Below the pieces are notes generated by a model. That model saw nothing but the letters and a program-made list of their open reading frames with translations, made no database searches and was not told the DNA's origin. Shown here in pieces: positions 40,634-62,688 of a stretch of DNA of 64,000 nucleotides (positions are counted from its first letter, which is position 1; the number at the start of each line of letters is the position of its first letter). Origin of the DNA: Fuerstiella sp. (GTDB lineage Bacteria; Planctomycetota; Planctomycetia; Planctomycetales; Planctomycetaceae); the NCBI GenBank assembly GCA_022447225.1, contig JAKVAZ010000016.1, positions 62,001 through 126,000 of the forward strand, in the 5' to 3' direction. The position numbers were made by a program, and so were the translations under genes.

Positions 40634-40854
40634 CTGAGCCTCGCCACTGTTCCAGATCTGAACGCAGTCAGCTTGGCAGTATCAGCGGCCGGTGAGCGAC
40701 CGTCAAGTACTCGTATCCTGTAATGCAGTTACCCAGTTACGGTCCATGGTTGACACCGACACTCGCGACGAAGAGGATGGATTCGATTCAATTTCCTGAG
40801 GGAATCGTTGTTGAATCGGAGAAACAGAACTTCAAGTCATCAGGGTTTATCAAC

Positions 40855-41307
40855 ATGGGTGTCACACGACGGGAACTGATTCAGGGTGCTGCGTTGATTG
40901 GCGCCGTCGGCATTGGTGGCGAGAATCAGCCGGTAGCTGCGGTGGTAAACGAACAGGTCTGCTCCAGCCAAATTCTGTTGCAAATCTATTTTAAGGTTGA
41001 TCCGAAACGTTCAGCAGAATTTGAAGAAATGTTTGCTGAGTCGTACGTGCCGGCCCTGAGAAAACAGCAGGGATATCTGAGGTCCGGCCTGTTGCGTCTA
41101 TTCGCCCCGGACGTTGCCGAGGAGATTCAGGCGGAGCCAACCCAATTCAACTATCAGATGGAATTGGTCTTTGATACCGAAGAAAATCGACGGAAGTGGG
41201 TCGCCAGCAAAGAGCATGTGAAGGCATGGCCTCACGCATCCGGGATGGCCCAAGAATTTGCCTGGCGCGGATTCGATGTCGTGGGAGTCGACCGGAGTTC
41301 AGAATGA
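40855..41307 (+). CDS. Tat-exported dimeric alpha/beta-barrel (ABM-like) protein
   Basis: A 150-aa protein. I start it at ATG 40855, since MGVTRRELIQGAALIG is a twin-arginine leader; upstream in-frame codons to 40723 would displace it. The mature domain has the ferredoxin-like pattern LLQIYFKVDPKRSAEFEEMFAE, then QQGYLRSGLLRLF, and ends KEHVKAWPHA, which resembles ABM/EthD-type dimeric barrels. Folded export through Tat suggests a cofactor or pre-assembled dimer. It sits 84 bases upstream of the Tat glycosidase-like gene and probably belongs to the same unit. Confidence 0.75.
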   Translation: MGVTRRELIQGAALIGAVGIGGENQPVAAVVNEQVCSSQILLQIYFKVDPKRSAEFEEMFAESYVPALRKQQGYLRSGLLRLFAPDVAEEIQAEPTQFNYQMELVFDTEENRRKWVASKEHVKAWPHASGMAQEFAWRGFDVVGVDRSSE

Positions 41308-41391
41308 AGCACCGTGGCGCAATCGTATGTCCACTTGGTTTGCCGGATCCCGCGTCCCTGGCCCACTGACAACTTCACAGGTTGAGAAAAC

Positions 41392-42966
41392 ATGAATCTG
41401 ACTCGACGTGGACTTCTGCAGCAGGCCGCTCTTGCGAGTACGGCTGTCGGTGTGAATCCGATCGCAGCAGCTGATGATCAGAACAGACGACCGGCGCGCA
41501 GGCCAAGGACGATCTATTTCAACGACGCGCGACATTACTACCTGTACGTTTTTGATCCCCCGATGAGTCTGGCGGATGCGTGGCGTCCGATTGACGAAGT
41601 TGCGGGGACTGCTATCGACACGTTCGTGTACGGAGTCGAACGTGGTGACGGGCTGTTTTACCCGTCGAAAGTGGGTATGCGGTTTGGTGAGGACAAACGG
41701 CCGTTCGATTTTGCTGCTTACTGGCGTGCCTGGCACAATATGCAGAGTCTGATGGATCAGGGACTCGACCCTTTGAAAGTGCTGATTGATCGTGCACATC
41801 AAAAGGATATGGAATTCATCGCCAGCCTGCGTATGAGCAGCTATGGCGGGATCAAGCCTGAGTTCAAGGTGCCTGAGGGCGGCCGCGGGATGGCCCATCA
41901 GGAAGTTCGGGACCACCAGCTGGCTGTAATCAGAGAACTGGCGACAGACTACGATGTTGAGGGACTTGAGCTGGATTTTGCAGCGGCGCCAGGCGGTATG
42001 CCTCCGATCCTCAGGAACGAAGATGCTTCCGAATTCACTCCCGTCATGACCCGCTACGTTGCTCAGATTGCTGAGATGGTTCGCAGTCGCACTGACCGCA
42101 GTCTGCAGCTGGGTGCTCGAGTTTATCCGACGGAAAAAATGAACCTTGCTCAGGGCCTTGATGTTCGTTCGTGGCTCCGGCAGGGGCTGGTCGATTACAT
42201 AGTTCCGATGTTCTATCTCGACTTTACACTTGATCCGGATATGCCGTTCGACTGGCTGGTTGAGGCTGCACATCAAAAAGATATTTCCGTGTACGGTATG
42301 CTTGCTCCTTACGTTGCCAATGAACAAACAGGGTCAGCTGTCCCTGTCCATGCGGGCCCGGAGCATCTGCGGGCAGCCGCTGCAAACTTCCGGAACCGTG
42401 ATGTCGATGGACTTTACACCTGGTTCATGAAGTGGCCACTGGGAGACGCCGAGCGAAGATCGCTCACGGAACTGGGAGATGCAGATCTGATCACCGAAGC
42501 CAACAAACATTACATCCTGCATCGTCGGTCCGCACAGGCCGCCGAATTGGGGTACGACGCTCATTTACCTCTCAAAATCGAATCCGCTGATCCGGGCAAA
42601 CGCTACACAATCCCGTTTTCGATTGCGGACGACGTCGAACAGTCTGCGGGCCGCATTCGGGGTATCCAGCTCCGCATCAGCATCAAGAATCTGGTGACCG
42701 ATGATCGACTGAGTATTCGATTGAACGGAAAATCTCTGGCGACGGAAACATGTCGACGCGACTTCAATAATTCTGTTTCGCCCTACGAAGGTCAGCTGCT
42801 TGCCTTTGAACTTAACAGTGTGCTGCCACGTGCCGGGGCAAACGTTCTGGACCTCTCACTGGACTCGCGTCCCGATGGGCTTGAAGGCGGTGTGACGATT
42901 CAAAGCGTTGAATTGCTTATTGAATACGGTCCATATCCTTCCGCGTTGAATCGGACATCCGGGTAA
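41392..42966 (+). CDS. Tat-exported glycosidase-like TIM-barrel protein, paralogue 1
   Basis: A 524-aa protein with Tat leader MNLTRRGLLQQAALAS. The body looks like a TIM barrel: TIYFNDARHYYLYVFDPP, IDTFVYGVERGDGLFY, EGLELDFAAAP (E193, D195), LGARVYPTEKMN, and VDYIVPMFYLDF. The ELDF strand is where glycoside-hydrolase-like families carry an acidic catalytic pair. The last ~130 residues form a beta-sandwich (LRISIKNLVTDDRLSIRLNGKSL). I do not recognise an assigned GH family. Two paralogues lie at 54710 and 57673. It is followed after seven bases by the desaturase-like gene, so the two are probably cotranscribed. Confidence 0.8.
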   Translation: MNLTRRGLLQQAALASTAVGVNPIAAADDQNRRPARRPRTIYFNDARHYYLYVFDPPMSLADAWRPIDEVAGTAIDTFVYGVERGDGLFYPSKVGMRFGEDKRPFDFAAYWRAWHNMQSLMDQGLDPLKVLIDRAHQKDMEFIASLRMSSYGGIKPEFKVPEGGRGMAHQEVRDHQLAVIRELATDYDVEGLELDFAAAPGGMPPILRNEDASEFTPVMTRYVAQIAEMVRSRTDRSLQLGARVYPTEKMNLAQGLDVRSWLRQGLVDYIVPMFYLDFTLDPDMPFDWLVEAAHQKDISVYGMLAPYVANEQTGSAVPVHAGPEHLRAAAANFRNRDVDGLYTWFMKWPLGDAERRSLTELGDADLITEANKHYILHRRSAQAAELGYDAHLPLKIESADPGKRYTIPFSIADDVEQSAGRIRGIQLRISIKNLVTDDRLSIRLNGKSLATETCRRDFNNSVSPYEGQLLAFELNSVLPRAGANVLDLSLDSRPDGLEGGVTIQSVELLIEYGPYPSALNRTSG

Positions 42967-42973
42967 TTCAACT

Positions 42974-44023
42974 ATGGCAACCACTCAACAGGAAGTCGAA
43001 CACTCCGCAGCGACCGAGATTGATGACGGCTCACTGAGTCGGGACGCCCGAGGTGAGTGGAGGCCGCGCATTCTGGGTAAGGCTCTGCCTTTTAGATGGC
43101 CTGTTCAGCCCAGGGAACTGTTCAGGTTCTTCCTTGGTTTTCCCGGGTTTCTCTGGCCGTTTGGAGCTGCGGCGCACTACGGACTGGCGGCGGTGACGTG
43201 GCGGTTTCTGCAGCCGGGATCAGCACAGCTCAGTAATTTCAGTCATTTGAGTGTCGGATGGATCCTGCCGATGTATCTGCGCAACCTGGTGATGCTGTTG
43301 CTGGTGGCCGGTACGCTGCACATCATCCTGTACTGGCGCCGCCTGCAGGGCACCCGTTTTAAGTACAATTCGCGGTGGCCTGGAACACACAGCAAAATAT
43401 TTCTGTTTAACAACCAGGTCCGGGACAATATGTTCTGGAGTCTGGCCAGCGGTGCCACCATCTGGACGGTGTACGAAGTTCTCATGCTGTGGGCATACGG
43501 CAACGGCTGGCTTTCATTCATCACGCTGTCCGGCAACCCTGTATGGTTCGTGGTGCTGGCCACCATCTTGCCGTTCTGGCAGGACGTGCACTTTTACGTG
43601 ATCCATCGAATCTCACACTGGAAACCACTCTACGACGCGGCACACTACCTGCACCATCGCAACACCAATGTCGGTCCGTGGTCGGGGTTGTCCATGCACC
43701 CGATCGAACACCTCCTCTATTTTAGTCGCTGGGCCATTCTATTCATCGTACCGTCACACCCGATCCACATGTTCTATCTCATGCAGCGTCCGGCACTGAA
43801 TCCGGCGCTGGGACACACGGGATTTGACCGGATCCTGCTGAAGAAAGATGCAGAAAGCGGGATGTCGGTGGACTCATATTTTCATTATCTGCATCACCGC
43901 TATTTTGAATGCAATTACGGTACCATCACGGTACCACTGGATCGCTGGATGGGGTCGCTTCACGACGGCACTCCGGAATCGCTCGAACGGATGCGAAGGA
44001 AGCGGCGAATTCCGGCAGAGTAG
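42974..44023 (+). CDS. Sterol desaturase / fatty-acid hydroxylase superfamily protein
   Basis: A 349-aa membrane protein with four to five hydrophobic spans (FLGFPGFLWPFGAAAHYGL, LVMLLLVAGTLHIILYW, and VVLATILPFWQ among them). The superfamily's diiron histidine clusters are clear: HFYVIHRISHW, HYLHHRNTN and HYLHHRYFECNYGT. It begins seven bases after the Tat glycosidase-like stop and lacks an obvious ribosome site, consistent with translation coupling. The combination of a lipid-type hydroxylase with an exported glycosidase-like enzyme is unusual; a glycolipid, hopanoid or carotenoid-like substrate is conceivable, but not shown. Confidence 0.85.
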   Translation: MATTQQEVEHSAATEIDDGSLSRDARGEWRPRILGKALPFRWPVQPRELFRFFLGFPGFLWPFGAAAHYGLAAVTWRFLQPGSAQLSNFSHLSVGWILPMYLRNLVMLLLVAGTLHIILYWRRLQGTRFKYNSRWPGTHSKIFLFNNQVRDNMFWSLASGATIWTVYEVLMLWAYGNGWLSFITLSGNPVWFVVLATILPFWQDVHFYVIHRISHWKPLYDAAHYLHHRNTNVGPWSGLSMHPIEHLLYFSRWAILFIVPSHPIHMFYLMQRPALNPALGHTGFDRILLKKDAESGMSVDSYFHYLHHRYFECNYGTITVPLDRWMGSLHDGTPESLERMRRKRRIPAE

Positions 44024-44206
44024 GTTGCGGTATGTTCTGTTTCGCGATGGAGTTTGAGAAGCGGCAGTCGTTGCAGGACTGCTTATTACTTATTGATCAG
44101 GGCCAATCAAAATTTTCCGTCAACGCATTTCCGTCCCCATCGGACGGAGATGATCTGTCCAGCCGATCAATCCTGTTGCTCTTTCGAAACAAAAGGATCA
44201 GCTTTC

Positions 44207-45094
44207 ATGCAAGTCACCAGGACGTTTTTTGTGATCCTGAGCACTCTGTCAGTCGTGTTACCGGCTTCCGGCGAAGACACGAACAACGCTGAATTGCTGT
44301 CTGGACGGATCGCTCATTCAGATCCGTCAATGTACAGCACCGCTTCCAGCGTTCACGGTGGCGCCGGTAAACTGCATTACCAGGGCCTGTTGTCCCGACC
44401 GGCGATGAACACGAATTTCATTTTCCTTGATTGCGGTGTGATTCCTCCGAAGGGCGGAATCGGACATCACTTTCATCACAAGATGGAAGAAATGTATGTG
44501 ATCCTCGACAACGAGGCGGAGTTCACCATCAACGGTCGTACATCACTGCTGCAGGGGCCTGCGGGAGTTCCGTGCAAGATGGGGCAGTCTCATGCGATCT
44601 ACAATCCGACTGACAAGCCGGCCGGATGGTTGAACTTTGCCGTTTCATCCGTCAAACGCAATTATGATAACTTTGATTTAAACGATGACCGAGTGGGGGC
44701 CTCCCTGGACGAACCCCCGGTGTTTGTCGCGGCGACATTCGACCGCAGTCTCCTGCAGCCGGTTGATCGGTACCATGGAGGTACAGGGACTGTTCACTAC
44801 CGTCGGGCACTTGCTCCTGCAGTGTTCTCAACTCCCTGGGCGTTTGTCGATCACCTGATCATTCCACCCGAGTCCGGAGTTGGGACTCGTCAGCACGCAA
44901 ACATCGAAGAGATCTATTACATCGTGCGCGGAGCCGGGAGCATAACGATTGATGGCCGGTCAGCAGCTATCCGCAAAGGTGATGCCTTCTACACCCTGCT
45001 CAATGAATCGTACAGCATTACGAATAACAGCACAGGAGATCTGGAGCTGCTGATCGTTGGTGTGGCGATGGACAAGGATCAGCTGCAGCCATAA
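44207..45094 (+). CDS. Exported double-cupin protein
   Basis: A 295-aa protein with signal peptide MQVTRTFFVILSTLSVVLP, cleaved near SGEDT. I start at ATG 44207 because AAAAGGA lies nine bases upstream; a longer frame from 44054 places the leader 51 residues in. Two cupin barrels are visible: GIGHHFHHKMEEMYVILDNEAEF with a complete His-His-Glu set, and VGTRQHANIEEIYYIVRGAGSI with His-Glu pairs. Such bicupins bind one metal per barrel and act as dioxygenases, isomerases or sugar binders. It is in the same direction as the upstream desaturase and downstream oxidoreductase genes. Confidence 0.82.
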   Translation: MQVTRTFFVILSTLSVVLPASGEDTNNAELLSGRIAHSDPSMYSTASSVHGGAGKLHYQGLLSRPAMNTNFIFLDCGVIPPKGGIGHHFHHKMEEMYVILDNEAEFTINGRTSLLQGPAGVPCKMGQSHAIYNPTDKPAGWLNFAVSSVKRNYDNFDLNDDRVGASLDEPPVFVAATFDRSLLQPVDRYHGGTGTVHYRRALAPAVFSTPWAFVDHLIIPPESGVGTRQHANIEEIYYIVRGAGSITIDGRSAAIRKGDAFYTLLNESYSITNNSTGDLELLIVGVAMDKDQLQP

Positions 45095-45218
45095 TAACGG
45101 TAATCCCTTGACTGGTTTCGAACTCTTGCTGCTACGGCACTCGCGCCGATCGTTCTTCTGCTGATGAGGAACCACATGTCTGTCACGTTTTAAGATTCCC
45201 ATGTCAATTTCCGGTCCA

Positions 45219-45239
45219 GGTCTCTGATTCAGACCTGTT
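45219..45239 (+). other. Hairpin downstream of the double-cupin gene
   Basis: CAGGTCT (45219-45225) and AGACCTG (45233-45239) form a seven-base-pair stem with a seven-base loop. There is no T tract, so it may be an mRNA 3' stabiliser rather than a terminator. Confidence 0.4.
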
Positions 45240-45337
45240 CGGGCCTGCTGTCTCAGGAGGCAGATACGGTTCTGTCCGAATGGTTCGCGCTCGAGATCGG
45301 AGCCGGACAATCAATATCCATACTGGTAAAACGATTT

Positions 45338-46684
45338 ATGTCCACATCAGCAACGCTTCAGTCCGATGGACTCCCGTTTTGGCTTGATCTGTACCGCCCT
45401 GGATATCCCTCGCTTGATCATGATCTTAGCGTGGACATTGTGGTGATTGGTGCCGGTATCAGTGGTCTGAAACTGGCTCGCTGTCTGTCCCGGTACGGTC
45501 TTGACGTGGTTGTGATCGAAGCCGGTCGTGTTGGAGACGGTGCTTCATCCCGCAACCAGGGGTGCATCACTTACAATGTGGGCAGCTACGGGGAATTTGC
45601 AAAGACTCACTCACGCGAGACGGCACGTGAGTTGTGGCGGCTGGGGATGGAAAGTCATCGTTGTATTACAGAACAAATCCAGGAGTACGAAATCGAGTGT
45701 GATTACCAGGTGAATGGTGTGTTCACGTTTTTGCGTCCGGATACACCAGGGTGGCAGGACCAGCTTGAATCGTTCAGGACAGACTGCAGGATGCTTGGTG
45801 AGGATGGTTTTGATGCCAAAGTACTGGATGCGGATGAAACACGGGAACGTTCCGGCAGCCCGTTTCCTGTCGCGGCATTTGCCCATCTGGAAGCGGCACA
45901 GTTTCACTCGGGTAAATTTGTGACTGGTTTGGCGCGCGGTCTTTCGAATCGGGACAAGGTCCGTATCTTTGAAAATTCTCGTGCTCAGCAGATCCAGCGG
46001 TCCGGTGACACCGTGAAAGTGCAGACTGCCGACGGGGTGATCACTGCGGAACGTGTCTTTCTGGCAACCAATGCACTGGTTCCACAATTTATTCCGGGTC
46101 TGGAACACGGGCTGCGTGCTGAACGTGGTCAGGTTTTCGTCACTGAGCCGCTTACGGAACGTCCCTGTCAGGGGTGCTGTGGTGGCCAGCTTGCATGGTG
46201 GCGCGAAGTTGTAGAGGCTGATGGAAGGTTCCGGCTGCTCTTCGGCGGCGGACGGGGGCGAGACGAGCCGGATAGTCTGTTTCCGCAGTTCACTAAGGAC
46301 GGTGATCCTCATCCGGTGTTGGAGAAAAAAGGATTCAGCCCGTCAGCCGAACATCAGCGCCGACTTGACACTCAGTTTGCCATCTTCTTCCCGCACCTGG
46401 CCGGGGTGCGGATCACACATCGCTGGGGCGGGCTGCAGTCCTTTACCTGCGATGATCTTCCGATGATCGGAGAGTTCGATCCTTCGCGCCGAGTGCACGG
46501 CATCGCAGGGCTCTCCGGCAAAGGAAACTGTTTTGCGGACGTCGGTGCTGAGTACCTGGCGGGCAGGGCGGCGGGCGTTGAGAGTGACATAGAGGTCCGG
46601 TACGGGGCGCTTATGGAAAAAATGCTCAGGCCAGGTCGGGATGGAGCTAACTGGGACTCGTGGGAGACGACCCACCGAATTTGA
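45338..46684 (+). CDS. FAD-dependent oxidoreductase (DadA/PuuB-like)
   Basis: A 448-aa D-amino-acid-oxidase-superfamily flavoprotein. The Rossmann dinucleotide motif VVIGAGISGLKLARCLS is at about residues 30-46, followed by VIEAGRVGDGASSRNQG and the second nucleotide-contacting segment RVFLATNAL. C-terminal HRWGGLQSFTCDDLPMIGEF and IAGLSGKGN match the FAD-binding end of gamma-glutamylputrescine oxidase-like enzymes. It probably oxidises an amine or imino acid in the cytoplasm; an imine product is a natural substrate for RidA, encoded 7 kb away. A ten-base-pair hairpin follows the stop. Confidence 0.88.
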   Translation: MSTSATLQSDGLPFWLDLYRPGYPSLDHDLSVDIVVIGAGISGLKLARCLSRYGLDVVVIEAGRVGDGASSRNQGCITYNVGSYGEFAKTHSRETARELWRLGMESHRCITEQIQEYEIECDYQVNGVFTFLRPDTPGWQDQLESFRTDCRMLGEDGFDAKVLDADETRERSGSPFPVAAFAHLEAAQFHSGKFVTGLARGLSNRDKVRIFENSRAQQIQRSGDTVKVQTADGVITAERVFLATNALVPQFIPGLEHGLRAERGQVFVTEPLTERPCQGCCGGQLAWWREVVEADGRFRLLFGGGRGRDEPDSLFPQFTKDGDPHPVLEKKGFSPSAEHQRRLDTQFAIFFPHLAGVRITHRWGGLQSFTCDDLPMIGEFDPSRRVHGIAGLSGKGNCFADVGAEYLAGRAAGVESDIEVRYGALMEKMLRPGRDGANWDSWETTHRI

Positions 46685-47025
46685 AATGGTCTGTGTCTCG
46701 GCGCTTTCAGATTTTATCACGGGAGTTGAGTCGCCGAGACAGTCATGTTTCGTTTCACAGGACATATTCCACTGCGACTTGTATCCGGAAATCGTTATTG
46801 GGAACCGTACCAGGTCATTGAATTGTTCACGTTGTCCTCCAGATGATTAAAAGCACCCTGTTTTAATTTGTTTTCAGTCGCAACTCAGTAGGCCTTCGAC
46901 GTTCTCCACCCCTGCCGGCCGTCTCTTTCGACAACGATTACAATGACTCGTCGAGATCCTCGGGGTGGTCATGAAATTTTAAATGAGCACCATTCAGCAG
47001 GTGTCATTTATTTGGTGCCGTTGTC
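46685..47025. other. Intergenic region before the MFS gene
   Basis: About 341 bases holding the hairpin above and no other recognisable element. The MFS start lacks a ribosome site. A short in-frame piece at 46983-47180 is a frame artefact. Confidence 0.35.
46694..46741 (+). other. Ten-base-pair inverted repeat after the FAD oxidoreductase
   Basis: TGTCTCGGCG (46694-46703) pairs perfectly with CGCCGAGACA (46732-46741) around a 28-base loop, starting ten bases after the stop codon. No T run follows. A transcript end-structure or factor-binding site is likely. Confidence 0.5.
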
Positions 47026-48544: not shown

Positions 48545-51478
48545 TTATTGAGTGCATTCCACTGCGATTTCCCTCAGGTAGGCAGTGTTGGCGCCGTCAG
48601 GTGAGGTAAATATCGCACGATACTGTAACCAGCGATGTTCAGCCGGAATACCGACCAATGCCGCCGGAGATTCCCGATAGAACGATTTTGGCCCGGTGGG
48701 GCCGTGCCAGTCAGTTGCCGTCAGCATGTTTTTCTGTGAAGCGCTGCGAACCTGAAATGTTATCGCCGTTCCGTGATTCGTTTCCGCATTCCAGTGGAAT
48801 CGTGCGAACAACGTGTTCTGTGGTGCATCGACCGGTTCGAATATGTACTCCCATCGTTGTTTGCGGTCGTAGATGTTGCCGGCATCGACCATCGCGTCGA
48901 GATGGACGCCAACGGTGGGCAGATTGGTGCGACGCCCACCTGCAAAACCCTGCTGGCCGCCCCAAAAGATGTCGGTGCCCCCCAATCCGTGATCGAAATT
49001 TTTCTGATGGTTGGAAACAATCAGTTCCGGCCAGCCGTCTCGATTCAGATCCAGTGCATCAATTGCTGCGCCGGATGCTGCCGAGAGCAGGGTCCGCCGT
49101 TTTGCATTGTAGTTACGGCTGCCGTCGCCCCAGTACAGGAATGTGGGAATCCTGCGGTTCGTATTGGATTTGTAGTTGCTCATGGCGATATCCAGATGAC
49201 CGTCTCGGTTGAAATCGGCGATGCTGGCATCGAGCGCCGCGTATCCTTCCAGTTCGGTCGGAGGATTGACTGCAAATCCCTGTGGGCTGCCCCAGTAAAT
49301 GAACGTTGGGGTATTGACCGTATAGCGAGTGGTGTCCGCACCGCTGGTGAATACCAGATCGAGCCAGCCGTCACGATCCAGATCAGCGCTCACTGCATGT
49401 GGCGAGCCGCTGGCCGGCAGGCGTTCACTGTTTTCGCGTTGATATCCCTTCTGACTCCCGTACCAGATTTCCGAAGTCTCCGAATTTCCCAGTGGAAAGA
49501 TCAGATCCAGGTGTCCGTCACGGTTCAGGTCGGCAATTGAGTTGGCTTCGGTCCCCGGGGCTGACAACTCAAATTCGTACGTCCTGGCTCCGTCAAATCG
49601 TTTTTCGTTACCCCACAGAATAACGGTGCGGGCGTTTGTCTTTTCTGCGTCTCGGAAGGATCCTGGTACCGTGTAAACGATGTCGAGCCAGCCGTCACGG
49701 TTCAGGTCGGCCACACTGCTGCTCATGGGATTTCTGACCGGTAACTCCGTTTGACTGCGTGCGCTGAAACCAGCGGGAGAACCCCACATGATATTTGCGT
49801 GCATGGATCGATCGCTGAGAAACAGCAGATCGGGAAACCCGTCGTCATCCAGATCGGCGACGCTGTACTCCATGTGAGGATTTGCCTCGAGGATCGTGGC
49901 CGAAGCACTGGAATAATGGTGGCCTGAGTTGCCCCAAAAAATGACGGCCGGTCGAGTTGTGTTGTTTCCGCTGAGATGACTGACCAGCAAAACATCGGTC
50001 CGGCCGTCACGATTTAAATCTGCAACGCCACTGCCAATTGTTCCGAAACCGGTCAATTCCTGTCGACGCCAGGATGCATAGCCATCCGGGCTGCCCCAGT
50101 AAATGTATGAGGGTACGTCGTTTCTTTCTGCATCACGGCTGTTGCCGAACAGAATATCAGGAGTTTCATCGCCGTTCAGATCGGCCACCTGAACCGTCGC
50201 AGATCCCAGGGTGGGCAAATCTGTTCGTTTTGTTTCGTCGAACCCCTGTTCGGAGGCCCAGAAGATCGTGGAATCGGAACCGGGTTGTCTGCGTCCTCTG
50301 ACGAATCCTGGTCCCTCATTTGCAAGCACGATCTCCGGTCGTCCGTCACGATTCAGGTCGGCCGTGGCAATTCCTTTACAATTATCTGCCGGCAGTTCGA
50401 GGCATTGTTCGACGTTCAGACCTTCCGCCTGTCCGTAATACACCACAGCTTTCTCGGTACCGCCGATCACAAGATCCGCGAAGTGATCGCCGTTGAGCTG
50501 TGTTGCCACTAATGTCTGCATGCCCCGGTTTTGACCAAAGCGATCTTGACCGAACGTCGTCAGCCGCAGTGCTTCTCTGTTTAAAATCTGTCGATGCGCG
50601 ACATCGAAATCTCCGTTTCCGTCGTTGAAATAAACATATGCGCTCTGCTCTTCGCGGTTAAAATTCACGAATGCCAGATCAGGTGCAGTGTCGCCGTTGA
50701 AATCGCCCATCGCGACGTCAGCCGCACTAATTGTGGGGACTGAAGTTCGCCGTGTAGGATGAAATCCATCGGCGCTGCCCCAATAGATCCAGGATTCGAG
50801 ATGCAGGTGATATCCCCACGATTCTCCTCGTTCGTCACCGCGATTCGACAGAACGACTTCCGGCAGGCCATCGCCATTCAGGTCGCCGACCGCCACGCCA
50901 CTGGCCAGGAAACTTGGCAGTTCAGTGCGGTTCATCGGGGAGAATCCTGAATCGCTGCCCCAGTAAATCTGAGAATTCTGATCAGGACGGTAGTTGTGCA
51001 TGAAATTGGCGAACACGATGTCAGGATGACCGTCACCGTTGAGATCCGTAATTTTGGCGCGTCCGCCCCCCATCGTCGGCAGCCGTGTGATTGCGGATCT
51101 CGTTTGGTCCAGCCAGGTCAACAGCGAGAACGGTGCACGCATCCGCCACATTTCCGGCAACAGCGACCGGAAGCCGTCTGTACTTCCCCAGTAGATAAGT
51201 GAATCGGGTGTGTAGACGCTGTCGTGGTCCTGTGTGAACAGCAGGTCAATTTCACCATCCAGATTGAAGTCCAGGCGGTTGATCGTTTGCACACGTCCCT
51301 GTCGCGACACGTACAGGTTTTGACCACCATCAGCGGCGGCTCCTTCTCGCAGCTGTTCGAAGCCGCTGCGTCGAAGAAAGACGGGATCACCTGCGACAGC
51401 AACTGTGACGAACTGCAAAATCATCATCGCTGTGGTAATGAGCGAAGTTTGTGCTTTCGCCATGTCAGATTGTGGCAT
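48545..51478 (-). CDS. Exported FG-GAP/VCBS repeat protein with 14 calcium-type repeats
   Basis: A 977-aa secreted protein. AAGGAAG lies upstream of two adjacent ATG codons (51481, 51478); the second has better spacing. A hydrophobic leader (MMILQFVTVAVAG) precedes the repeats. I count fourteen D-x-N/D-x-D/N-G calcium-like motifs (DLNGDGHPDI, DLNRDGWLDI, DFNRDGHLDI and others), most paired with an IYWGS or ILWGN strand. Fourteen could form two seven-bladed propellers, as in integrin-like FG-GAP proteins. A beta-rich tail follows. It probably binds a polysaccharide or protein at the surface. It is the last gene of a minus-strand operon, 32 bases after the creatininase. Confidence 0.88.
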   Translation of the reverse strand: MPQSDMAKAQTSLITTAMMILQFVTVAVAGDPVFLRRSGFEQLREGAAADGGQNLYVSRQGRVQTINRLDFNLDGEIDLLFTQDHDSVYTPDSLIYWGSTDGFRSLLPEMWRMRAPFSLLTWLDQTRSAITRLPTMGGGRAKITDLNGDGHPDIVFANFMHNYRPDQNSQIYWGSDSGFSPMNRTELPSFLASGVAVGDLNGDGLPEVVLSNRGDERGESWGYHLHLESWIYWGSADGFHPTRRTSVPTISAADVAMGDFNGDTAPDLAFVNFNREEQSAYVYFNDGNGDFDVAHRQILNREALRLTTFGQDRFGQNRGMQTLVATQLNGDHFADLVIGGTEKAVVYYGQAEGLNVEQCLELPADNCKGIATADLNRDGRPEIVLANEGPGFVRGRRQPGSDSTIFWASEQGFDETKRTDLPTLGSATVQVADLNGDETPDILFGNSRDAERNDVPSYIYWGSPDGYASWRRQELTGFGTIGSGVADLNRDGRTDVLLVSHLSGNNTTRPAVIFWGNSGHHYSSASATILEANPHMEYSVADLDDDGFPDLLFLSDRSMHANIMWGSPAGFSARSQTELPVRNPMSSSVADLNRDGWLDIVYTVPGSFRDAEKTNARTVILWGNEKRFDGARTYEFELSAPGTEANSIADLNRDGHLDLIFPLGNSETSEIWYGSQKGYQRENSERLPASGSPHAVSADLDRDGWLDLVFTSGADTTRYTVNTPTFIYWGSPQGFAVNPPTELEGYAALDASIADFNRDGHLDIAMSNYKSNTNRRIPTFLYWGDGSRNYNAKRRTLLSAASGAAIDALDLNRDGWPELIVSNHQKNFDHGLGGTDIFWGGQQGFAGGRRTNLPTVGVHLDAMVDAGNIYDRKQRWEYIFEPVDAPQNTLFARFHWNAETNHGTAITFQVRSASQKNMLTATDWHGPTGPKSFYRESPAALVGIPAEHRWLQYRAIFTSPDGANTAYLREIAVECTQ

Positions 51479-51510
51479 CATTGCTTCCTTAATCATCCGG
51501 CAACTGTCGA

Positions 51511-52506
51511 TCAGGATTTGTCGGCTTCAGTTGCTGCGATCATTGTCTGCATTTTATCGACCACAAAATTGATGGCTCTGGTCAAAATGATTTCGCCCGT
51601 TTTTTCATGCGCCAGCAGAGCTTCTTCCTGACGTCTTCGGTCGCGGCCGTTTTCTCCGGCAAGATCAATTTCTCCGTCTTTGAATGATCGTCTGTCACGA
51701 CGAAGAAATTCTTCAACTTCAGGAGAAAAGTCGGATTCGTAATTCAACTTTGCATCATCGTACTCTTCCATCGTGAACGGCCGCAGTCGCCCGGGAAAAG
51801 CAGCTTTGTAAATCGATGTTTCAAACTCACCCGCATGAGATGTTAGTTGCTTCGAACGCACAAACGTCTTGAGCTCGCTTTGGGGAGTACCGGACCAGTA
51901 CGAGTCGGCGTCGATATTGATCCCCAGTTTCGTTCGCCATTCAGGCAGAGCTTCCTGGAGCGGCTGATGATTGCCACCATGGCCGTTAAGTACCAGAATC
52001 GTGCGAATTCCGTGGGCCTTGAGGCTTTCCATTACATCAAACACATACGCCTGGAAGGTTTCTTTGCGCAGGGTGATCGTTCCTTTACGTGCCATGTGAT
52101 AGGGGGCATATCCGCAGGGGCTGGGCGGAGCAACAATGACCTGAGGAAAGAGCTGAAGTGCCGCCTGCTGGGATATCAGTGTTGCATTGGCCACATCAGC
52201 GACCATAGCCATGTGTTCGTTGTGCTGTTCGATTGAGCCGGTAGGGAGAATTGCGGCTTTCAGTTGACCACCTTCCAGAAGCTCCCGGATTTCTTTACGG
52301 GTGTTCTCCCACAGAAGAACTTTGTCGGGATTGATGAACGATCTGCCTGCTTTGGACAGCGATTCGGCGGTAAACGGCAGTGAACCAGGTGCCTGCGCCA
52401 GTGACGGGCGGCTGCTCCCGTTCGTGACGGCCGCTGCGCCCGCAGTTCCGGCGGCAGCCGTCCCGAAAGCCTGAATAAAACTGCGTCGATTGGATTTCTC
52501 ACTCAT
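51511..52506 (-). CDS. Tat-exported creatininase-family amidohydrolase
   Basis: A 331-aa metal-dependent hydrolase. The Tat leader is MSEKSNRRSFIQAFGTAAAG. The creatininase metal motif reads GSIEQHNEHMAMVADVAN, with Glu, His and Asp ligands, and NGHGGNHQPLQEAL supplies the second His site. Family members hydrolyse cyclic or linear amides such as creatinine or formamide-like substrates, usually in the cytoplasm; export is unusual. AGGAC eight bases before the ATG overlaps the upstream stop codon, so translation with the amidohydrolase (four bases apart) is likely coupled. Confidence 0.88.
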   Translation of the reverse strand: MSEKSNRRSFIQAFGTAAAGTAGAAAVTNGSSRPSLAQAPGSLPFTAESLSKAGRSFINPDKVLLWENTRKEIRELLEGGQLKAAILPTGSIEQHNEHMAMVADVANATLISQQAALQLFPQVIVAPPSPCGYAPYHMARKGTITLRKETFQAYVFDVMESLKAHGIRTILVLNGHGGNHQPLQEALPEWRTKLGINIDADSYWSGTPQSELKTFVRSKQLTSHAGEFETSIYKAAFPGRLRPFTMEEYDDAKLNYESDFSPEVEEFLRRDRRSFKDGEIDLAGENGRDRRRQEEALLAHEKTGEIILTRAINFVVDKMQTMIAATEADKS

Positions 52507-52510
52507 GGCG

Positions 52511-53485
52511 TTAGTCCTGTCGTTTGAAGAAGAAATTTTCAGCGGTTGTTACCAGAATTTTTTGCTTATCCGACTTTGAGAGAAAATCGGCGTGTTCGCT
52601 GATGATGCCCACTGCCGCTGTTAACGTGTGACCGTTTTTGGTTTGCAGCGGAGCGTCGCTTTCCCACATGCATCGTTCCGGACCAAAGGCACTCACGACT
52701 CGTTCAATCAGCGTCAGCATGTCGAGATAGGGCGGCGTCTTTTGTCCAAAAGCATAGAATGCGCCAATTTTAAGCATGACGTTTTTATGTCGAGCCATCT
52801 TCATAAGCTGAACAATTTCCTCTTCGACAAACATCATGTTGCGACCGATAAGGCAAAAATGATCGATGATGACTGGTGTCTCGGGAAACTTCGTACACAT
52901 ACGGTCGAGTTCTGGAAGGTCCGAAGGCAGCATCAGAAAGCTGAGTGCCAGGTTGTGCTCCGCAGCGGTCGTAAACATTTTGTCGTACCCGGGATGTTCC
53001 AGCCATTGCACTCCGTCGTTAAAGTTTGGCCGGGTCGACTGTCCGCGAATGCGAAACGCGTAGATGCCCCCTTGAGACAGTTCGATCATCATCCGGTCAG
53101 GACCGGCCAGTGAAACGTCAGTGACGGCGGGAACGACCCCTGTGCCAGTGAATTGTCCGGGATACCTGGCGATCACATCCAGAATATAGCTGTGGTCCAG
53201 TCCGTACCAGGTCATCTGAACAAGGTTAAATCGATTGATACCGGCTGGTCGTCCAAGTTCCATGACTTCTTCGGCGGAGAAACTCGGGAACCACCGGTCG
53301 TCCTTTGTGAATCCGGCCGCCAGCGGATATTTCTGCGTGTCGGACGTCCAGATGTGCACATGAGCATCAATGATTCGGTGGTTGGACAGCACCGGCGGAG
53401 TTGTCGACCCGCAGGTCGACAACCTGCCTGTGAATGCCGCCGGAGCGACCGTTCCGGCCTTCTGCAAAAATTCTCTGCGTTGCAT
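52511..53485 (-). CDS. Tat-exported amidohydrolase (TIM-barrel, amidohydrolase-2 family)
   Basis: A 324-aa hydrolase or decarboxylase. I start it at ATG 53485 because GAAGG lies seven bases upstream and MQRREFLQKAGTV is a Tat leader; the longer frame from 53527 has no leader at its start. The metal site is visible as IIDAHVHIWTSD (HxH), then PVIIDHFCLIG with a His and CMWESDAPL with the catalytic Asp. Family members act on lactones, cyclic amides or aromatic acids. It lies between RidA (63 bases upstream) and creatininase (4 bases downstream). Confidence 0.88.
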   Translation of the reverse strand: MQRREFLQKAGTVAPAAFTGRLSTCGSTTPPVLSNHRIIDAHVHIWTSDTQKYPLAAGFTKDDRWFPSFSAEEVMELGRPAGINRFNLVQMTWYGLDHSYILDVIARYPGQFTGTGVVPAVTDVSLAGPDRMMIELSQGGIYAFRIRGQSTRPNFNDGVQWLEHPGYDKMFTTAAEHNLALSFLMLPSDLPELDRMCTKFPETPVIIDHFCLIGRNMMFVEEEIVQLMKMARHKNVMLKIGAFYAFGQKTPPYLDMLTLIERVVSAFGPERCMWESDAPLQTKNGHTLTAAVGIISEHADFLSKSDKQKILVTTAENFFFKRQD

Positions 53486-53548
53486 ACTGCAGCCTTCACG
53501 GGACCGACGGTGCAATGACCCGAACATCGCAGAGGTTCCGGATAGATC

Positions 53549-54139
53549 TCACGATTCACGAACCTGAAACACGGCTTCAATTTCGACGGCAATGCCGAAC
53601 GGCAAACCACTCATTCCCACGGCACTGCGGGCGCCCTTACCGGCTTGTTCACCAAACACATCGATCATCAGCGTACTGAACCCGTTGATAACCTGAGGAT
53701 GTTGTGTGAAGTCGTCCGTGCTGTTGACCATTCCGGTCACTTTGACAAGGCGTTCGACCTTGTCGAGGCTTCCCAGCGCACCGCGTATTGTGCTGAGCAT
53801 GTCCAGTCCTGTCAGACGGGCGGCAGTCTGTGCTTCTTCCATGGACAGCGATTTACCGACTTTCCCTTTGACAAAACCACCATCCGGTTTTCGAGGACCG
53901 TGTCCCGAAAGATAGAGTATGTTTTCAACCTGTACGGCAGGTCTGAATGGGGCACTGGGTGCACTCGATTCACGCAGTTCTATTCCTAAATCACGAAGCC
54001 TGGCTTCTGCACCGGATGTCCGTTCAACACCTGCTTGTACCAGTGTGGAGTTTGATCTGGGAACCAGCGACCCGGCAGTGGCTCCTGCTGTGAATATAGC
54101 GCAGCTCCCAAGAAAACGACGTCGACTCGCAATTGACAT
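53549..54139 (-). CDS. Tat-exported RidA/YjgF-family protein
   Basis: A 196-aa protein with leader MSIASRRRFLGSCAIFTAGA and a RidA trimer domain. The key arginine lies in ARSAVGMSGLPFGIAVEIEAV, matching the imine-binding Arg of active RidA proteins. RidA proteins hydrolyse reactive enamine or imine intermediates; this one would act outside the cytoplasm. AGAGGA nine bases upstream supports the ATG. It opens the four-gene minus-strand unit RidA, amidohydrolase, creatininase, FG-GAP. Confidence 0.88.
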   Translation of the reverse strand: MSIASRRRFLGSCAIFTAGATAGSLVPRSNSTLVQAGVERTSGAEARLRDLGIELRESSAPSAPFRPAVQVENILYLSGHGPRKPDGGFVKGKVGKSLSMEEAQTAARLTGLDMLSTIRGALGSLDKVERLVKVTGMVNSTDDFTQHPQVINGFSTLMIDVFGEQAGKGARSAVGMSGLPFGIAVEIEAVFQVRES

Positions 54140-54709
54140 GATTGACTGTTCCTCTTTGGGCGATCGTAATTTTGACCGATACAGAAAGCTTCAGATTCGA
54201 AGCGAGTTCCCACGATAGCCCTGAAGGTCACCTCAGGCAACTTCCACGTGGGGCCCCGGTCACGATCAAGTTCGTTTGTTGCGACTGGTGATTATTTCTT
54301 AAAGAGAACGGCCATTACATTTTCAACAGGATTGAACGAGTCTGTCAGACGAGGCTGGTTCGGAGCATACAGGATACTTTGTCGGGAAACATACATCTGT
54401 TGTTTGCATAATCCGCCCCACAGCCGTTCATGACTGATGGTACAGCACGGAAGATGTTCATAGCTGGTGAGAATGCAAACCGCTTTGTGAACGATCGTCT
54501 GCCTGCTTATGTCTTTTGAGATTATCCGACGCTAACATCGGATTTGCTGATGAACGCGACTGCCGTCGAAAGATCACGATCACCGGTTTGATGCCAGAGT
54601 GACGGCGACGACGAATGAGGGAAGATCCGATACGTTGGATCATTCGTGGAATAAGTATTCAGTTCTTCTGTCCGATGACATGGTTTCGAACGTACCTGGT
54701 GAGGATCCC
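54140..54709. other. Divergent intergenic region between RidA and Tat glycosidase paralogue 2
   Basis: About 570 bases with no gene apparent, likely holding divergent promoters. A small hairpin (GATCC-GATACGTT-GGATC) lies near 54624-54642. The frame starting at 54599 is continuous with the glycosidase gene, but the leader begins at 54710. Confidence 0.35.
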
Positions 54710-56407
54710 ATGAAACGCAGAAAATTCATACAGACGATCGGTACCACGGCACCCATCGCCGCTGCGGCAAATGCGGCGGAAACGGTTCCTGATGCAGTGG
54801 CTGTGACCCGGACAGAAGAACCTCGGGTCTTTGTCTCTGACGATGGACGACACGCAGCTCCGCTGTATCAGTTCGCTCCGGAACTCGAGCCAGCCGATCA
54901 CGCGTTCGTTCTGGATCAGCTTGTCGGCAGCGGGGTAGATACCTTGATCTACTTCGCGGGGCTGGAGGGGGGTGTCGCCCTGTACGACAGCCGGGTTGTC
55001 CAGAAGTGGGGAGACAACGTTGTTAAGTGGAAGCATCCGGTCTTTTATCGCGCGGCTCGCCATATTCAGCAGCTGATCGACGATGGATATGATCCATTGA
55101 AGGTACTGTGTGATCGTGCTCATGAAAAACGCGTCTGGTTGATTGCCGGCAACTGGGTCGGCCTGCAGGGTGGAGATCGTACGATCGATGGGGGCTTTGG
55201 GCGAAAGTCTGATTTTGTCTACGACAATCCGAATTTCCAGGTGGGAACGGAAAACGATCCTCGAGCGGAACACGTAGACCCGGCTCGCTTCAGTTTCCTG
55301 CACGCCAAAGTTCGTAAAGAACGATTGAGTGTCTTTGAAGAAATGCTGACCCGGTACGAAACTGACGGCATTGAACTGAACCTGGTTGATTTTGCTCCCT
55401 TTTGTTTGTTCTCGCAGGCTGGTCAACTTTCTGAAGTACTGACAACGTGGCTACGTGATCTCAAAGTGATCGCCCAAAGGGCGGAACAGAGACAGGGTCG
55501 GCGCAAGCGAATCTATGCACGAATACCTTCCCATCCGGATGCCTGGAAAGTTCTGGGGTATGATGTGGCGGGGTGGGTGGAAGGAAAGCTGGTGGACGGA
55601 TTCATTTGTTTACCCGCATTGATGGAAGATCCTATGGATCAGGCACCCGACATTTCTGAAATTGTCCGCCTGACACGCGGAACGTCATGTCGGGTGCTGA
55701 CGGCGTTGAACGATACCCTGGGCAGGCAATTTGAAGGGTATGCCACAGCACCTATGACGTGGGCAGCAGCTGCCAACGCGTACGATCAGGGAGCCGATGG
55801 CTTTGGAATCAGTAACTATCATCATTCGCCCAACGGCTGGCCGTGGACAGCTGAAGAATATGAGAAGTTCCGTTTGCTGGGTCATCCTGATCTGCTGGCG
55901 ACCGCCGACAAACTGTATCGGGCACCGTCGATGCCGCGGGGGATTTCGGACGGGTACTGGTTGCCGGGAGTCATGCCCCTGCTGCCTCAGGTTCTCGAGC
56001 AGAATCAACCGGTGGAGACGCAACTGCGGATCGCAGACGATCTGTCAAAATGGGAAGCCCTGGGGCGAGTCTCCTCAGTGCGATTACGGGTTCGACTGAC
56101 GAATATCGAGCCTTCCCTGAACGAAGTTCGTATCGAACTCAACGGCAGGCAGCTCCCGGACAGGATGTTGAAACTTACGGATCTGACCTACCGGCTGTAC
56201 GAACTTGGTGCCGTCAACCCGTATGGATTCGTGTACGAATACGAACTGCCTGCCGAATGGTATCCCAATCGGGGAAACAACACGGTCACGGTGACCGTGG
56301 CTGAGTACGATCCTGACATTGATTTCATGTTTCAGGTGGTGGATATTGATATCGTGGTGAATTATTGTGTTCACCGCCATTTCGAACGCTCACCGGCTGC
56401 CTACTGA
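54710..56407 (+). CDS. Tat-exported glycosidase-like protein, paralogue 2 (variant active site)
   Basis: A 565-aa protein. GGTGAGGA precedes the ATG at 54710, and MKRRKFIQTIGTTAPIAAA is the Tat leader. It has the same layout as 41392 and 57673: DTLIYFAGLEGGVALY, YARIPSHPDAWKVLGYDVAGW, and a C-terminal beta-sandwich (VRLRVRLTNIEPSLNEVRIE). The barrel strand reads DGIELNLVDF, so the Asp present in both paralogues is N224 here. The barrel's sixth strand also loses the VPMFY/APMYY signature (GFICLPALME). It may be a lectin-like or differently specific member. It is transcribed away from the RidA operon. Confidence 0.78.
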   Translation: MKRRKFIQTIGTTAPIAAAANAAETVPDAVAVTRTEEPRVFVSDDGRHAAPLYQFAPELEPADHAFVLDQLVGSGVDTLIYFAGLEGGVALYDSRVVQKWGDNVVKWKHPVFYRAARHIQQLIDDGYDPLKVLCDRAHEKRVWLIAGNWVGLQGGDRTIDGGFGRKSDFVYDNPNFQVGTENDPRAEHVDPARFSFLHAKVRKERLSVFEEMLTRYETDGIELNLVDFAPFCLFSQAGQLSEVLTTWLRDLKVIAQRAEQRQGRRKRIYARIPSHPDAWKVLGYDVAGWVEGKLVDGFICLPALMEDPMDQAPDISEIVRLTRGTSCRVLTALNDTLGRQFEGYATAPMTWAAAANAYDQGADGFGISNYHHSPNGWPWTAEEYEKFRLLGHPDLLATADKLYRAPSMPRGISDGYWLPGVMPLLPQVLEQNQPVETQLRIADDLSKWEALGRVSSVRLRVRLTNIEPSLNEVRIELNGRQLPDRMLKLTDLTYRLYELGAVNPYGFVYEYELPAEWYPNRGNNTVTVTVAEYDPDIDFMFQVVDIDIVVNYCVHRHFERSPAAY

Positions 56408-56623
56408 GTAGAGCTGCATTTCTGACTGCAACGGTTGAGTGATTCTAATATTTGGCGTGAATGACACGCATGAATGATTCGAATGACCGCCCGGTTGATC
56501 TTTCTTCATGGAGTTTGTCATGATAGCAGCGTCCGAGTGACAACCCGTCTACGTGATGCATTCGGAATCTTCCGAATCGACACGTCGGATTGATTTTCCC
56601 GACAGACAGTGAGCACGACCCTC

Positions 56624-57508
56624 ATGAGCAAAATCACGACTCCAGCGATCGATCCCGAAGAAGAAATTCCCTTCATGAACATCGATTCAACGGATTTTTC
56701 CTCCATCAGTCGAGCGGAGCAGATTCGTCGTCTTGAGGTTGAGGGATTCGTGGTCTTTCCGGAGATTCTGAAACCGGATCTGATTGCCACGATTAAGAGT
56801 GAACTTGCTGATGTGGAAATGGCGCATACGAGTTACAGCGTATCCCAGACCAGAGCTGTCACGCAGCCGCAGTGGCAAAGTCGAGCGGTTGCTGAGTTGA
56901 TTGGTTATCCACCGATGATCGAATTTCTCAATGATCTCATGGGGCCGGATATTGTGTTTACGCGAGGATTTTTTCAGCGGACGCATCCCGGATCCCCAGG
57001 GATCTCGATGCATACCGATGGCCAGCCTCACGGCTCCGACCTTTTTGGATATGAAGGCAGTTGCCCGCGTTTGGTACGGGTGCTGTATTACCTGGACGAT
57101 CTGACACCTGATCGGGCTCCATTTCGGCTGATTCCCCGATCTCACATCTCATTTCATGCCGATGCCAGTCCCTATGTACGTTACAAGTCTCACCCGGAAG
57201 AAGTGACTGTGACGGTGCCGGCGGGTTCGGCTGTCGTTGTTCCGTCGCTCCTGGTGCATGCCAGCCATCCCAACAGGGATACCAGTCCGCGTGAGCTCGT
57301 ACAGCTCGGTTACCGTCCTGCGTGGGCAGGACCAATTCAACCGGTTGATGAATGGGATCCGGAACTGGTCGCCGCCGCACCGGAGATTGCCAAGCCATTC
57401 CTGAAAAGTCTCAATACCACCGGTATGGTGTGGGAGCAGCCGCATAAACCGACGGGAATGAAGACCGAGGCCCCCGGTCTCAACCCAAGCCGCTGGGGAG
57501 ACGTTTGA
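56624..57508 (+). CDS. PhyH-family dioxygenase, paralogue of 32342
   Basis: A ~294-aa Fe(II)/2-oxoglutarate oxygenase. Iron ligands are H130 and D132 in ISMHTDGQPHG and H212 in LLVHASHP. The subfamily blocks LVRVLYYLDDLTP, SHISFHADASPY and the terminal EAPGLNPSRWGDV are shared with 32342. Start is ambiguous between GTG 56609 and ATG 56624; neither has a ribosome site. It is between two Tat glycosidase-like genes and faces the second one convergently. Confidence 0.85.
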   Translation: MSKITTPAIDPEEEIPFMNIDSTDFSSISRAEQIRRLEVEGFVVFPEILKPDLIATIKSELADVEMAHTSYSVSQTRAVTQPQWQSRAVAELIGYPPMIEFLNDLMGPDIVFTRGFFQRTHPGSPGISMHTDGQPHGSDLFGYEGSCPRLVRVLYYLDDLTPDRAPFRLIPRSHISFHADASPYVRYKSHPEEVTVTVPAGSAVVVPSLLVHASHPNRDTSPRELVQLGYRPAWAGPIQPVDEWDPELVAAAPEIAKPFLKSLNTTGMVWEQPHKPTGMKTEAPGLNPSRWGDV

Positions 57509-57672
57509 GTCGTTGCTACAGCGTCCGTTAAACACATACCTGGTGCGTTGGAGACAGCAGTCTGCACTCCGTTCTCAATTCCAATCAGGTTCAGGAACTT
57601 CAGACTGGTCGCAGAAGACGGTCGAATGATTCCAGCCTGTTTCAAGAAGTGGTGTTTTTTATTCGACCGGTA

Positions 57673-59229
57673 TCACAGTAGTTCGGGACGATCATATGCC
57701 GACTGAGGCAGCGCATACTCGACCAGTAATTCCACCTGATCGATCGTGATACCACCTGCCAGTCCTGGTGGTCTGGCGATCAGACTCACGCCCAGCTCAT
57801 TTGTTCCCTGACGTGGTCGCTGCTGGAGCAGCTCATATTCCAGCCACTGGAACTCGTAACGATGGCTGGTTCTCCTCACCGGCTCCTGGGAAAGCGAAAC
57901 ACCGTTCAGCTTCACTTCGAAGTTATCGGCGGTGACCAGGTTGTTGACTTTGATCAGCAGACGGGCTCGTCCGACGCGTTCTGATCCAGGATCGTCGGCC
58001 ACGAAAAAGGGGATCTCCCGGACTGTTCCTGCATCGGCACCTGGCAAACGCAGTGGCAGCGGGTGATCGTAACCCAATGCGGCAACATCATCCTGTCGGC
58101 GGGGGACCACATAATGTTTGTCCTTTTCCTTCAGATCCTGAGCTGCTCCAATATCGGTCAGAATTGCTTTCTCCTGATCGCGGAAGGGCCAGTAGAACCA
58201 GGGAGCGATGATCAGTCCGTCGGCACCGCGGGCCCGGTAGTTGGCGGAAGCTGCCCGAATCATGGCTGGTGTCGCATGCTGATCGTTATCCTGAATGTAG
58301 GGCTGCAGCACACCATAGACTTCAGCGCCCGCTGCATGCGCCGCCGGTGCCAGCGATTCCACCGGCAGATCTGCATCCAGCAGAAAGTAGCCATAGTACA
58401 TCGGGGCCACATAATCGATCAGTTTTTCTTCCAGCCATGTGGCAACGTCCAGGCCAAGGTCCAGATTCATTTGCATGTACGGAAACACACGGGCGCCCAC
58501 AATACGGTCCCGGCCTTTGCTGCGTACCATGTCTGAGATCCGCCGAACATAGTCATTCATCACAGGTATATTGGCCCTAATCTCGTCCGGTTTGAAGTAG
58601 TAGGGGGTGAAGGCGAAATCCAGTTCGATGCCTTCGACGGGATAGTCGGCTAATTCTTCGAGCCAGGTGAAACGAACATCGCGAACTTCCCGCCGACCGA
58701 AGTCCTGACAGCGTTCCCGCGGACCTCCACCCGCTGTGGCGTCTCCATGGACACCAATTTGATAGGTGTCTGGTCGGGGACCACCACCCATCCGCAGACT
58801 CGTAATGAAGTCCAGGTCTCGTTCGTGGGCTCTGTCAATGAGCACCTGCAACGGGTCGAGTCCCTGATCAATCAGGTTCTGCATGTTGTAATGAGCCCGC
58901 CACCGAATCGTGGATTCGAATGGTGGTCCTTCGTCAGTGCCAAAGCGTTTTGCCACTCTGGTGTCGCTGAACAGTCCTCCTCCTGTTTCGACTCCATAGA
59001 TGAACGTATCGATGGCAGTGCCGGCCAGTTCATCGATCGGCCGCCATGCATCTTCTTTGCTCATCGGTGGCTCAAAGGCATACATGTAGTAGTGTCGGGC
59101 ATCGTTGAAATACATCGTGCGCCCTCGCCGCAGAGGCTTCGGATCAGGCGCCGGGGTGGCATCTTCCGCCTGAGATGCGGCGGCACCGGAGGTGAGGGCG
59201 GCTGTGTAAAGAAACTGGCGACGTTGCAT
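57673..59229 (-). CDS. Tat-exported glycosidase-like TIM-barrel protein, paralogue 3
   Basis: A 518-aa protein with leader MQRRQFLYTAALTSGA. AAGGAAA six bases upstream supports the ATG. The barrel motifs align closely with 41392: MYFNDARHYYMYAFEPP, IDTFIYGVETGGG, EGIELDFAF (E202, D204), VGARVFPYMQMN and IDYVAPMYYGY, then a C-terminal beta-sandwich. It is thus the nearest relative of paralogue 1 and keeps the ELDF pair. It follows the SSS symporter by 147 bases on the minus strand, so uptake of its product is plausible. Confidence 0.8.
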   Translation of the reverse strand: MQRRQFLYTAALTSGAAASQAEDATPAPDPKPLRRGRTMYFNDARHYYMYAFEPPMSKEDAWRPIDELAGTAIDTFIYGVETGGGLFSDTRVAKRFGTDEGPPFESTIRWRAHYNMQNLIDQGLDPLQVLIDRAHERDLDFITSLRMGGGPRPDTYQIGVHGDATAGGGPRERCQDFGRREVRDVRFTWLEELADYPVEGIELDFAFTPYYFKPDEIRANIPVMNDYVRRISDMVRSKGRDRIVGARVFPYMQMNLDLGLDVATWLEEKLIDYVAPMYYGYFLLDADLPVESLAPAAHAAGAEVYGVLQPYIQDNDQHATPAMIRAASANYRARGADGLIIAPWFYWPFRDQEKAILTDIGAAQDLKEKDKHYVVPRRQDDVAALGYDHPLPLRLPGADAGTVREIPFFVADDPGSERVGRARLLIKVNNLVTADNFEVKLNGVSLSQEPVRRTSHRYEFQWLEYELLQQRPRQGTNELGVSLIARPPGLAGGITIDQVELLVEYALPQSAYDRPELL

Positions 59230-62647: not shown

Positions 62648-62688
62648 GAGAAAACTCCAAAGACAACTCTTCAGTCCATTCAGGCTGT

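Follow-up and report, generated by a model that had tools for sequence, protein, structure and literature searches.

Paralogous genes at the locus

The DNA stretch analyzed here—64,000 nucleotides of Fuerstiella sp. (contig JAKVAZ010000016.1, positions 62,001 to 126,000), hereafter the window—carries three related genes, A, B, and C. Their products are predicted to adopt the fold of EnvSia156, the inverting exosialidase that defines glycoside hydrolase family 156 (GH156; PDB 6rzd, 6s00, 6s04), and belong to a clade of this fold that we call DxRH after its sequence motif. The three genes, together with two family members directly past the window edge, are the following (window numbering; aa, amino acids).

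A: 41392-42966, + strand, open reading frame (ORF) of 524 aa; GH156 fold, DxRH clade (DARH type), Tat-like leader; (β/α)8 barrel at residues ~37-370 and β-sandwich at ~394-512; D45 corresponds to Asp14 of EnvSia156, R47 stands instead of Ser16, and H48 corresponds to His17
B: 54710-56407, + strand, 565 aa from its ATG; GH156 fold, DxRH clade (DGRH type), Tat-like leader, without Arg129 equivalent
C: 57673-59229, − strand, 518 aa; GH156 fold, DxRH clade (DARH type), Tat-like leader
D: ~64803-66551, − strand, directly past the window edge; DxRH type
E: ~67549-69372, − strand, directly past the window edge; canonical type

The ORFs at 41392, 54710, and 57673 are present as the original prediction had listed them, and the paralogy it claimed is borne out: A and C share 50% identity over their full length (E = 2e-128), while B matches A with E = 6e-17 in the first segment and 24-25% identity overall, well above chance. 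The motifs said to be common to all three are literal in A and C, whereas B reads DDGRHAA, ELNL, and ARIP. Likewise, the count of three holds for A, B, and C themselves but not for the family, as D and E follow past the edge and the genome encodes ~11 members including A–E. All three proteins start with an RR-x-[FL]-[LI] leader resembling a twin-arginine translocation (Tat) signal; the label Tat denotes this leader pattern only, with the NCBIfam Tat model scoring just below cut-off.

A GH156 fold

EnvSia156 is the best sequence match among solved structures for both A (E = 3e-12) and B (E = 2e-12). A profile built from 60 relatives reaches E = 2e-33 against it, and one built from the canonical paralogues E = 3e-59. 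AlphaFold models of A and B (predicted local distance difference test, pLDDT, of 90.7 and 80.8) have the same protein as their best PDB match, with Z 33.8 over 444 residues at 2.9 Å for A and Z 36.0 over 466 residues at 2.9 Å for B. The structural match extends from residue 37 of the model through the last part of the β-sandwich and takes in EnvSia156 chain residues 6-502; its start registers place D45 on Asp14. Because it covers both domains, the C-terminal β-sandwich noticed in the original prediction can be identified with that of EnvSia156. The DxRH proteins thus share the (β/α)8 barrel and the eight-stranded β-sandwich of EnvSia156 over the full length at ~20% identity, and sequence and models together place A, B, and C, as divergent members, in its fold family.

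The next-best fold is that of Cwp19 (Z 27.5-28.2), which matches the barrel only. Pfam GHL10 (PF02638) is scored on A with 37.6 bits against a gathering score of 27.9, over just 42 residues, and B and C fall below. Cwp19 and GHL10 resemble the family in their barrel and in two short motifs of the sequence, but lack a β-sandwich match and carry other active-site residues. Orphan glycoside hydrolase family and GH18/GHL10 enzyme were rejected as the best label for the proteins, the match to EnvSia156 being the stronger one and spanning both domains. A link to C-glycoside deglycosidases was also dropped: the sandwich of the canonical profile matched DgpB1 weakly (E = 0.0016), and Pfam did not confirm this.

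Active-site changes in the DxRH clade

In EnvSia156, Asp14 acts as the base and His134 as the acid, Arg129, Arg202, and Asn346 clamp the carboxylate of the substrate, and residues including Asn15, Ser16, and Tyr20 bind its glycerol tail, with Ser16 contacting O8 of the side chain (Bule et al., PMC6811678). Alignments covering residues 9 onward set L-N-E-D14-N15-S16-H17-Y18 of EnvSia156 against F-N-D45-A-R47-H48-Y of A. For a broader comparison, 169 proteins were aligned by a faster method than MAFFT L-INS-i and sorted into canonical and DxRH types by the His134 and D-x-R-H motifs; hence, Arg202 and Asn346 provide an independent check on the division.

The equivalent of Asp14 and an arginine at position 16 are present in 103/103 DxRH members and His17 in 102/103, and an Arg246 equivalent is kept as well. 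Arg202, on the contrary, occurs in 0/103 DxRH proteins versus 50/51 canonical ones—the remaining one bearing Lys—and Asn346 in 3/103 versus 51/51. The general acid His134, embedded in R-x-x-D-x-H, is absent from A, B, and C, and a histidine nearby is found in only 6 of the 103. Asn15 and Ser16 are replaced in the DxRH proteins, whereas Arg129 is present in the DARH type (A and C) and lost in the DGRH type (B). The histidine of the DxRH motif was considered as a novelty and rejected: EnvSia156 has His17 at this position, so that the arginine alone is new.

The canonical GH156-type paralogues share family and domains with the DxRH proteins, often within one gene island, but differ from them by retaining the EnvSia156 residue set. 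E, F, I, J, and K of the same genome keep R-M-N-[DS]-x-H, ELDxxR, and FN, with K bearing Lys for Arg202. In a quick tree computed with the motif columns left out, the DxRH clade has a support of 99 in the Shimodaira–Hasegawa-like approximate likelihood ratio test (SH-aLRT), and one change between the canonical and DxRH states is needed. Two proteins with no clear motif (L084 and L126) are placed inside the clade. Judged by these residues and the modeled fold, the sialic-acid site appears to be rebuilt in the DxRH clade. The original prediction, which knew of no described pathway with this gene set, counted assignment to a known glycoside hydrolase family as evidence against itself; the GH156 fold largely provides such an assignment, although the residues that make its founding member a sialidase are missing.

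Distribution and compartment

The DxRH clade is present in at least seven phyla. Relatives of A with 44-62% identity come from Acidobacteriota, Poribacteria, Gemmatimonadota, Latescibacterota, Chloroflexota (SAR202, Dehalococcoidia), Zixibacteria, and a few others, and isolate names suggest a sponge or marine origin for many of them. Planctomycetes seldom encode the A and C types: at high identity, A is found in just one of 59 relatives searched (G001, the nearest relative of this genome), and B types occur in 4/397 genomes of the class, this genome counted.

Elsewhere in the window, two proteins with no Pfam match (33295-34200 and 35604-36371) show synteny within Fuerstiella; the former has a homologue in two SAR202 loci (L056 and L108) that also carry DxRH genes.

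A Tat-like leader is found on the DxRH proteins of Acidobacteriota and on most of those from Planctomycetota. Those of Chloroflexota, Gemmatimonadota, Latescibacterota, and Poribacteria are leaderless and start ~10 residues before Asp14. As the leader is lineage-specific, export would not be part of the basic function; in the leaderless phyla, the proteins are expected to act inside the cytoplasm, which favors a small glycoside over a polymer as substrate. The extracytoplasmic route of the original prediction might hence hold for this planctomycete, where the leader is present, but not for the four phyla that lack it.

Neighboring genes

Around A, B, and C, the window holds the following genes.

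40723-41307, + strand: small exported protein 5' of A, without a Pfam match; synteny shared with the sister species
51511-52506, − strand: creatininase-family metal hydrolase (Pfam), twin-arginine (RR) leader; metal motifs of the family (GSIEQHNEH, NGHGGN, and HAGEFET) intact
52511-53527, − strand: Amidohydro_2 protein (Pfam), nearest to lactonases, RR leader
53549-54139, − strand: RidA/YjgF protein (Pfam), RR leader
56609-57508, + strand: PhyH-type dioxygenase between B and C
59377-61014, − strand: sodium:solute symporter (SSF)
61571-62788, − strand: Gfo/Idh/MocA-like oxidoreductase, RR leader; weak match, just below the Pfam cut-off
62689-64000, − strand: cupin plus SMP-30/gluconolactonase protein, continuing beyond the window edge

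The location of RidA, amidohydrolase, and creatininase between the paralogues, each behind an RR leader, had been predicted, and Pfam confirms their names. Which neighbors recur with DxRH genes was assessed in 77 loci by tblastn similarity to chosen queries, comparing a near zone (≤2.5 kb; 376 kb of DNA) with a far zone (>5 kb; 409 kb). A Gfo/Idh/MocA dehydrogenase of the type adjoining E lies within 200 bp of the DxRH gene in 24/77 loci and is counted 25 times near versus 4 times far. The near zone is also favored by an enolase-superfamily protein (12 near versus 1 far), a ferredoxin-reductase-like protein (5 versus 0), and the creatininase (6 versus 0)—the latter in 6/77 loci, with Gemmatimonadota and Acidobacteriota as the named phyla. 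Neither the amidohydrolase (1 near versus 4 far) nor the symporter (2 versus 2) is enriched close to DxRH genes, and RidA was matched by tblastn in 0/77 loci. Of the proposed linkage to the hydrolases, the creatininase thus recurs, whereas RidA and the amidohydrolase do not.

The Gfo/Idh/MocA partner, like the lineage-dependent leader, distinguishes the DxRH proteins from EnvSia156. Its own leader is present or absent in step with that of the adjacent DxRH protein, although its start is unreadable in several loci. Its N-terminal domain comes nearest to the models of UDP-GlcNAc 3-dehydrogenase and inositol dehydrogenase, with every score well short of the respective cut-off. This sets it apart from NanOx/YjhC and levoglucosan dehydrogenase, with which it shares the superfamily and a glycoside-linked redox chemistry; the NanOx family model gave no match in the one member scanned. 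The other partners come nearest to gluconate/galactonate and mannonate dehydratases, 5-dehydro-4-deoxyglucarate dehydratase, and L-fuconolactonase, below curated cut-offs. Taken together, the neighbors point to a general sugar-acid catabolism rather than to a named pathway.

Canonical and DxRH members occur together in 16/73 loci, and many loci have no canonical paralogue. In two Bryobacterales loci, a GH33-like BNR protein and an aldolase of the dihydrodipicolinate synthase (DHDPS) family directly follow a DARH gene (L047 7783-8934 and L048 11400-12617).

The hydrolase operon

The set of creatininase, amidohydrolase, and RidA genes is syntenic in the sister species. Outside the genus, a B homologue in G188 is followed by an exported three-domain RidA protein (L156 9961-11115) and then, where the contig ends, by a fragmentary creatininase gene; the order B–RidA–creatininase hence recurs once, in another planctomycete family. 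In G011, B is not followed by RidA or creatininase, and the contigs of G731 and G754 are short. The amidohydrolase is nearest to the hydrolases of 4-sulfomuconolactone, L-fuconolactone, and 2-pyrone-dicarboxylate lactone. A literature search found no link between inosose hydrolase and creatininase. Beside this operon lies a 983-aa FG-GAP repeat protein (48545-51496), whose homologues occur in several Acidobacteriota DxRH loci.

A probable glycosidase for a non-sialic sugar

We consider it probable that the DxRH proteins are GH156-fold glycosidases whose rebuilt site serves a non-sialic sugar and whose activity is coupled to oxidative sugar-acid catabolism. The loss of the acid and of two clamp residues and the exchange of Ser16 for Arg disfavor a terminal sialic acid and favor a smaller sugar. 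The DxRH proteins would hence be active and probably inverting glycosidases, with Asp45 activating water, and their substrate would be a sugar that has neither the carboxylate nor the glycerol tail found in sialic acid. The Gfo/Idh/MocA partner might then oxidize the freed sugar, and the product might pass via lactonase or creatininase-type hydrolases to enolase-superfamily dehydratases and finally to aldol cleavage. The first steps would take place outside the cytoplasm in this planctomycete and inside in the leaderless phyla. The locus is explained most economically by a glycosidase that supplies a Gfo/Idh/MocA dehydrogenase and sugar-acid dehydratases. More tentatively, the clade might form a cross-phylum class of GH156-derived enzymes that act on a non-sialic sugar with a changed apparatus—Asp14 and a local Arg–His pair, no His134—in teamwork with Gfo/Idh/MocA proteins; oxidized (keto-) glycosides, rather than ordinary ones, could then be what they hydrolyze.

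Several observations weigh against this assignment. A and C retain Arg129 and could thereby still recognize a carboxylate to some extent; no residue of the DxRH proteins emerged as a substitute for the general acid, and no biochemical work on the clade turned up. The 77 loci are not independent—several stem from close relatives—and the leader match of the Gfo/Idh/MocA partner tracks phylum and is, hence, weaker than it looks. Furthermore, the GH33-like and DHDPS-family neighbors of the two Bryobacterales loci would also suit sialic acids.

The DxRH proteins might have remained exosialidases, or their target might be a different nonulosonic acid (Kdn, legionaminic, pseudaminic, or anhydro forms), with Arg47 standing in for the lost clamp and the Gfo/Idh/MocA partner acting on anhydro-sialic acid in the manner of NanOx/YjhC. 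The fold and, for A and C, Arg129 are common to EnvSia156, and the Gfo/Idh/MocA-type RgNanOx does convert 2,7-anhydro-Neu5Ac (PMC7535918). Sponge metagenome-assembled genomes are rich in GH33, sponges hold sialic-acid-linked residues (PMC8163846), and GH156 was reported from SAR202 (PMC11994032). Yet His134, Arg202, and nearly always Asn346 are gone, Ser16 and Asn15 are replaced, B lacks Arg129 as well, and the scanned partner does not match NanOx, which makes this explanation rather unlikely.

Less probable still, the DxRH proteins could be catalytically dead or merely bind sugar in the service of a nearby canonical paralogue. The lost general acid and the loci shared with canonical genes are in line with such a role, but the invariance of Asp14 and Arg16, a nearly invariant His17, and the many loci with no canonical member argue for catalysis.

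The originally proposed route, in which the paralogues join RidA, amidohydrolase, and creatininase outside the cytoplasm to process a glycan with amide or imine groups, is very improbable. Its substrate was drawn from family names, and because RidA and the amidohydrolase do not recur and the latter is nearest to lactonases, the inference is unsupported; the leader missing in four phyla speaks against it, too. Synteny in the sister species, the one recurrence of B–RidA–creatininase, and the creatininase elsewhere are what it can draw on. The original interpretation as a whole is hence partly supported: exported glycosidase-like paralogues with a β-sandwich do lie in a catabolic gene island. A cell-wall or peptidoglycan enzyme like the GHL10-barrel lytic transglycosylase Cwp19 is hardly credible, even with the second-best fold and a GHL10 match in 60/60 aligned members, as that match is confined to the barrel, the β-sandwich and the higher Z side with EnvSia156, and Cwp19 and GH156 share no active-site residues (Bule et al., PMC6811678).

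Implications for GH156 surveys

Judged by title and abstract, none of 36 papers mentioning GH156 describes the DxRH clade. GH156 was reported in SAR202 (PMC11994032) and Planctomycetota (PMC11929135), surveys report it as a sialidase family, and some of them may label DxRH proteins as sialidases. If these proteins are so counted, environmental sialic-acid use would be overestimated and a sugar chemistry of ocean and sponge bacteria would be hidden—in lineages that are thought to break down hard-to-use organic matter and in which the DxRH genes have recurrent partners. A small set of residues predicts the loss of sialidase activity, and the clade would show how the site of a rare inverting glycosidase can be re-tooled.

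Further genes

The PhyH-type dioxygenase between B and C is one of four in the window (25086-25850, 31412-32170, 32342-33202, and 56609-57508), which form two similar pairs. A CinA-like protein (39266-40633) has an apparent signal-like N-terminus, which is odd for a CinA relative. The gene island also holds, at its far end, a cytochrome P450-like gene (L009 8945-10174; ~70945-72174 in window numbering).

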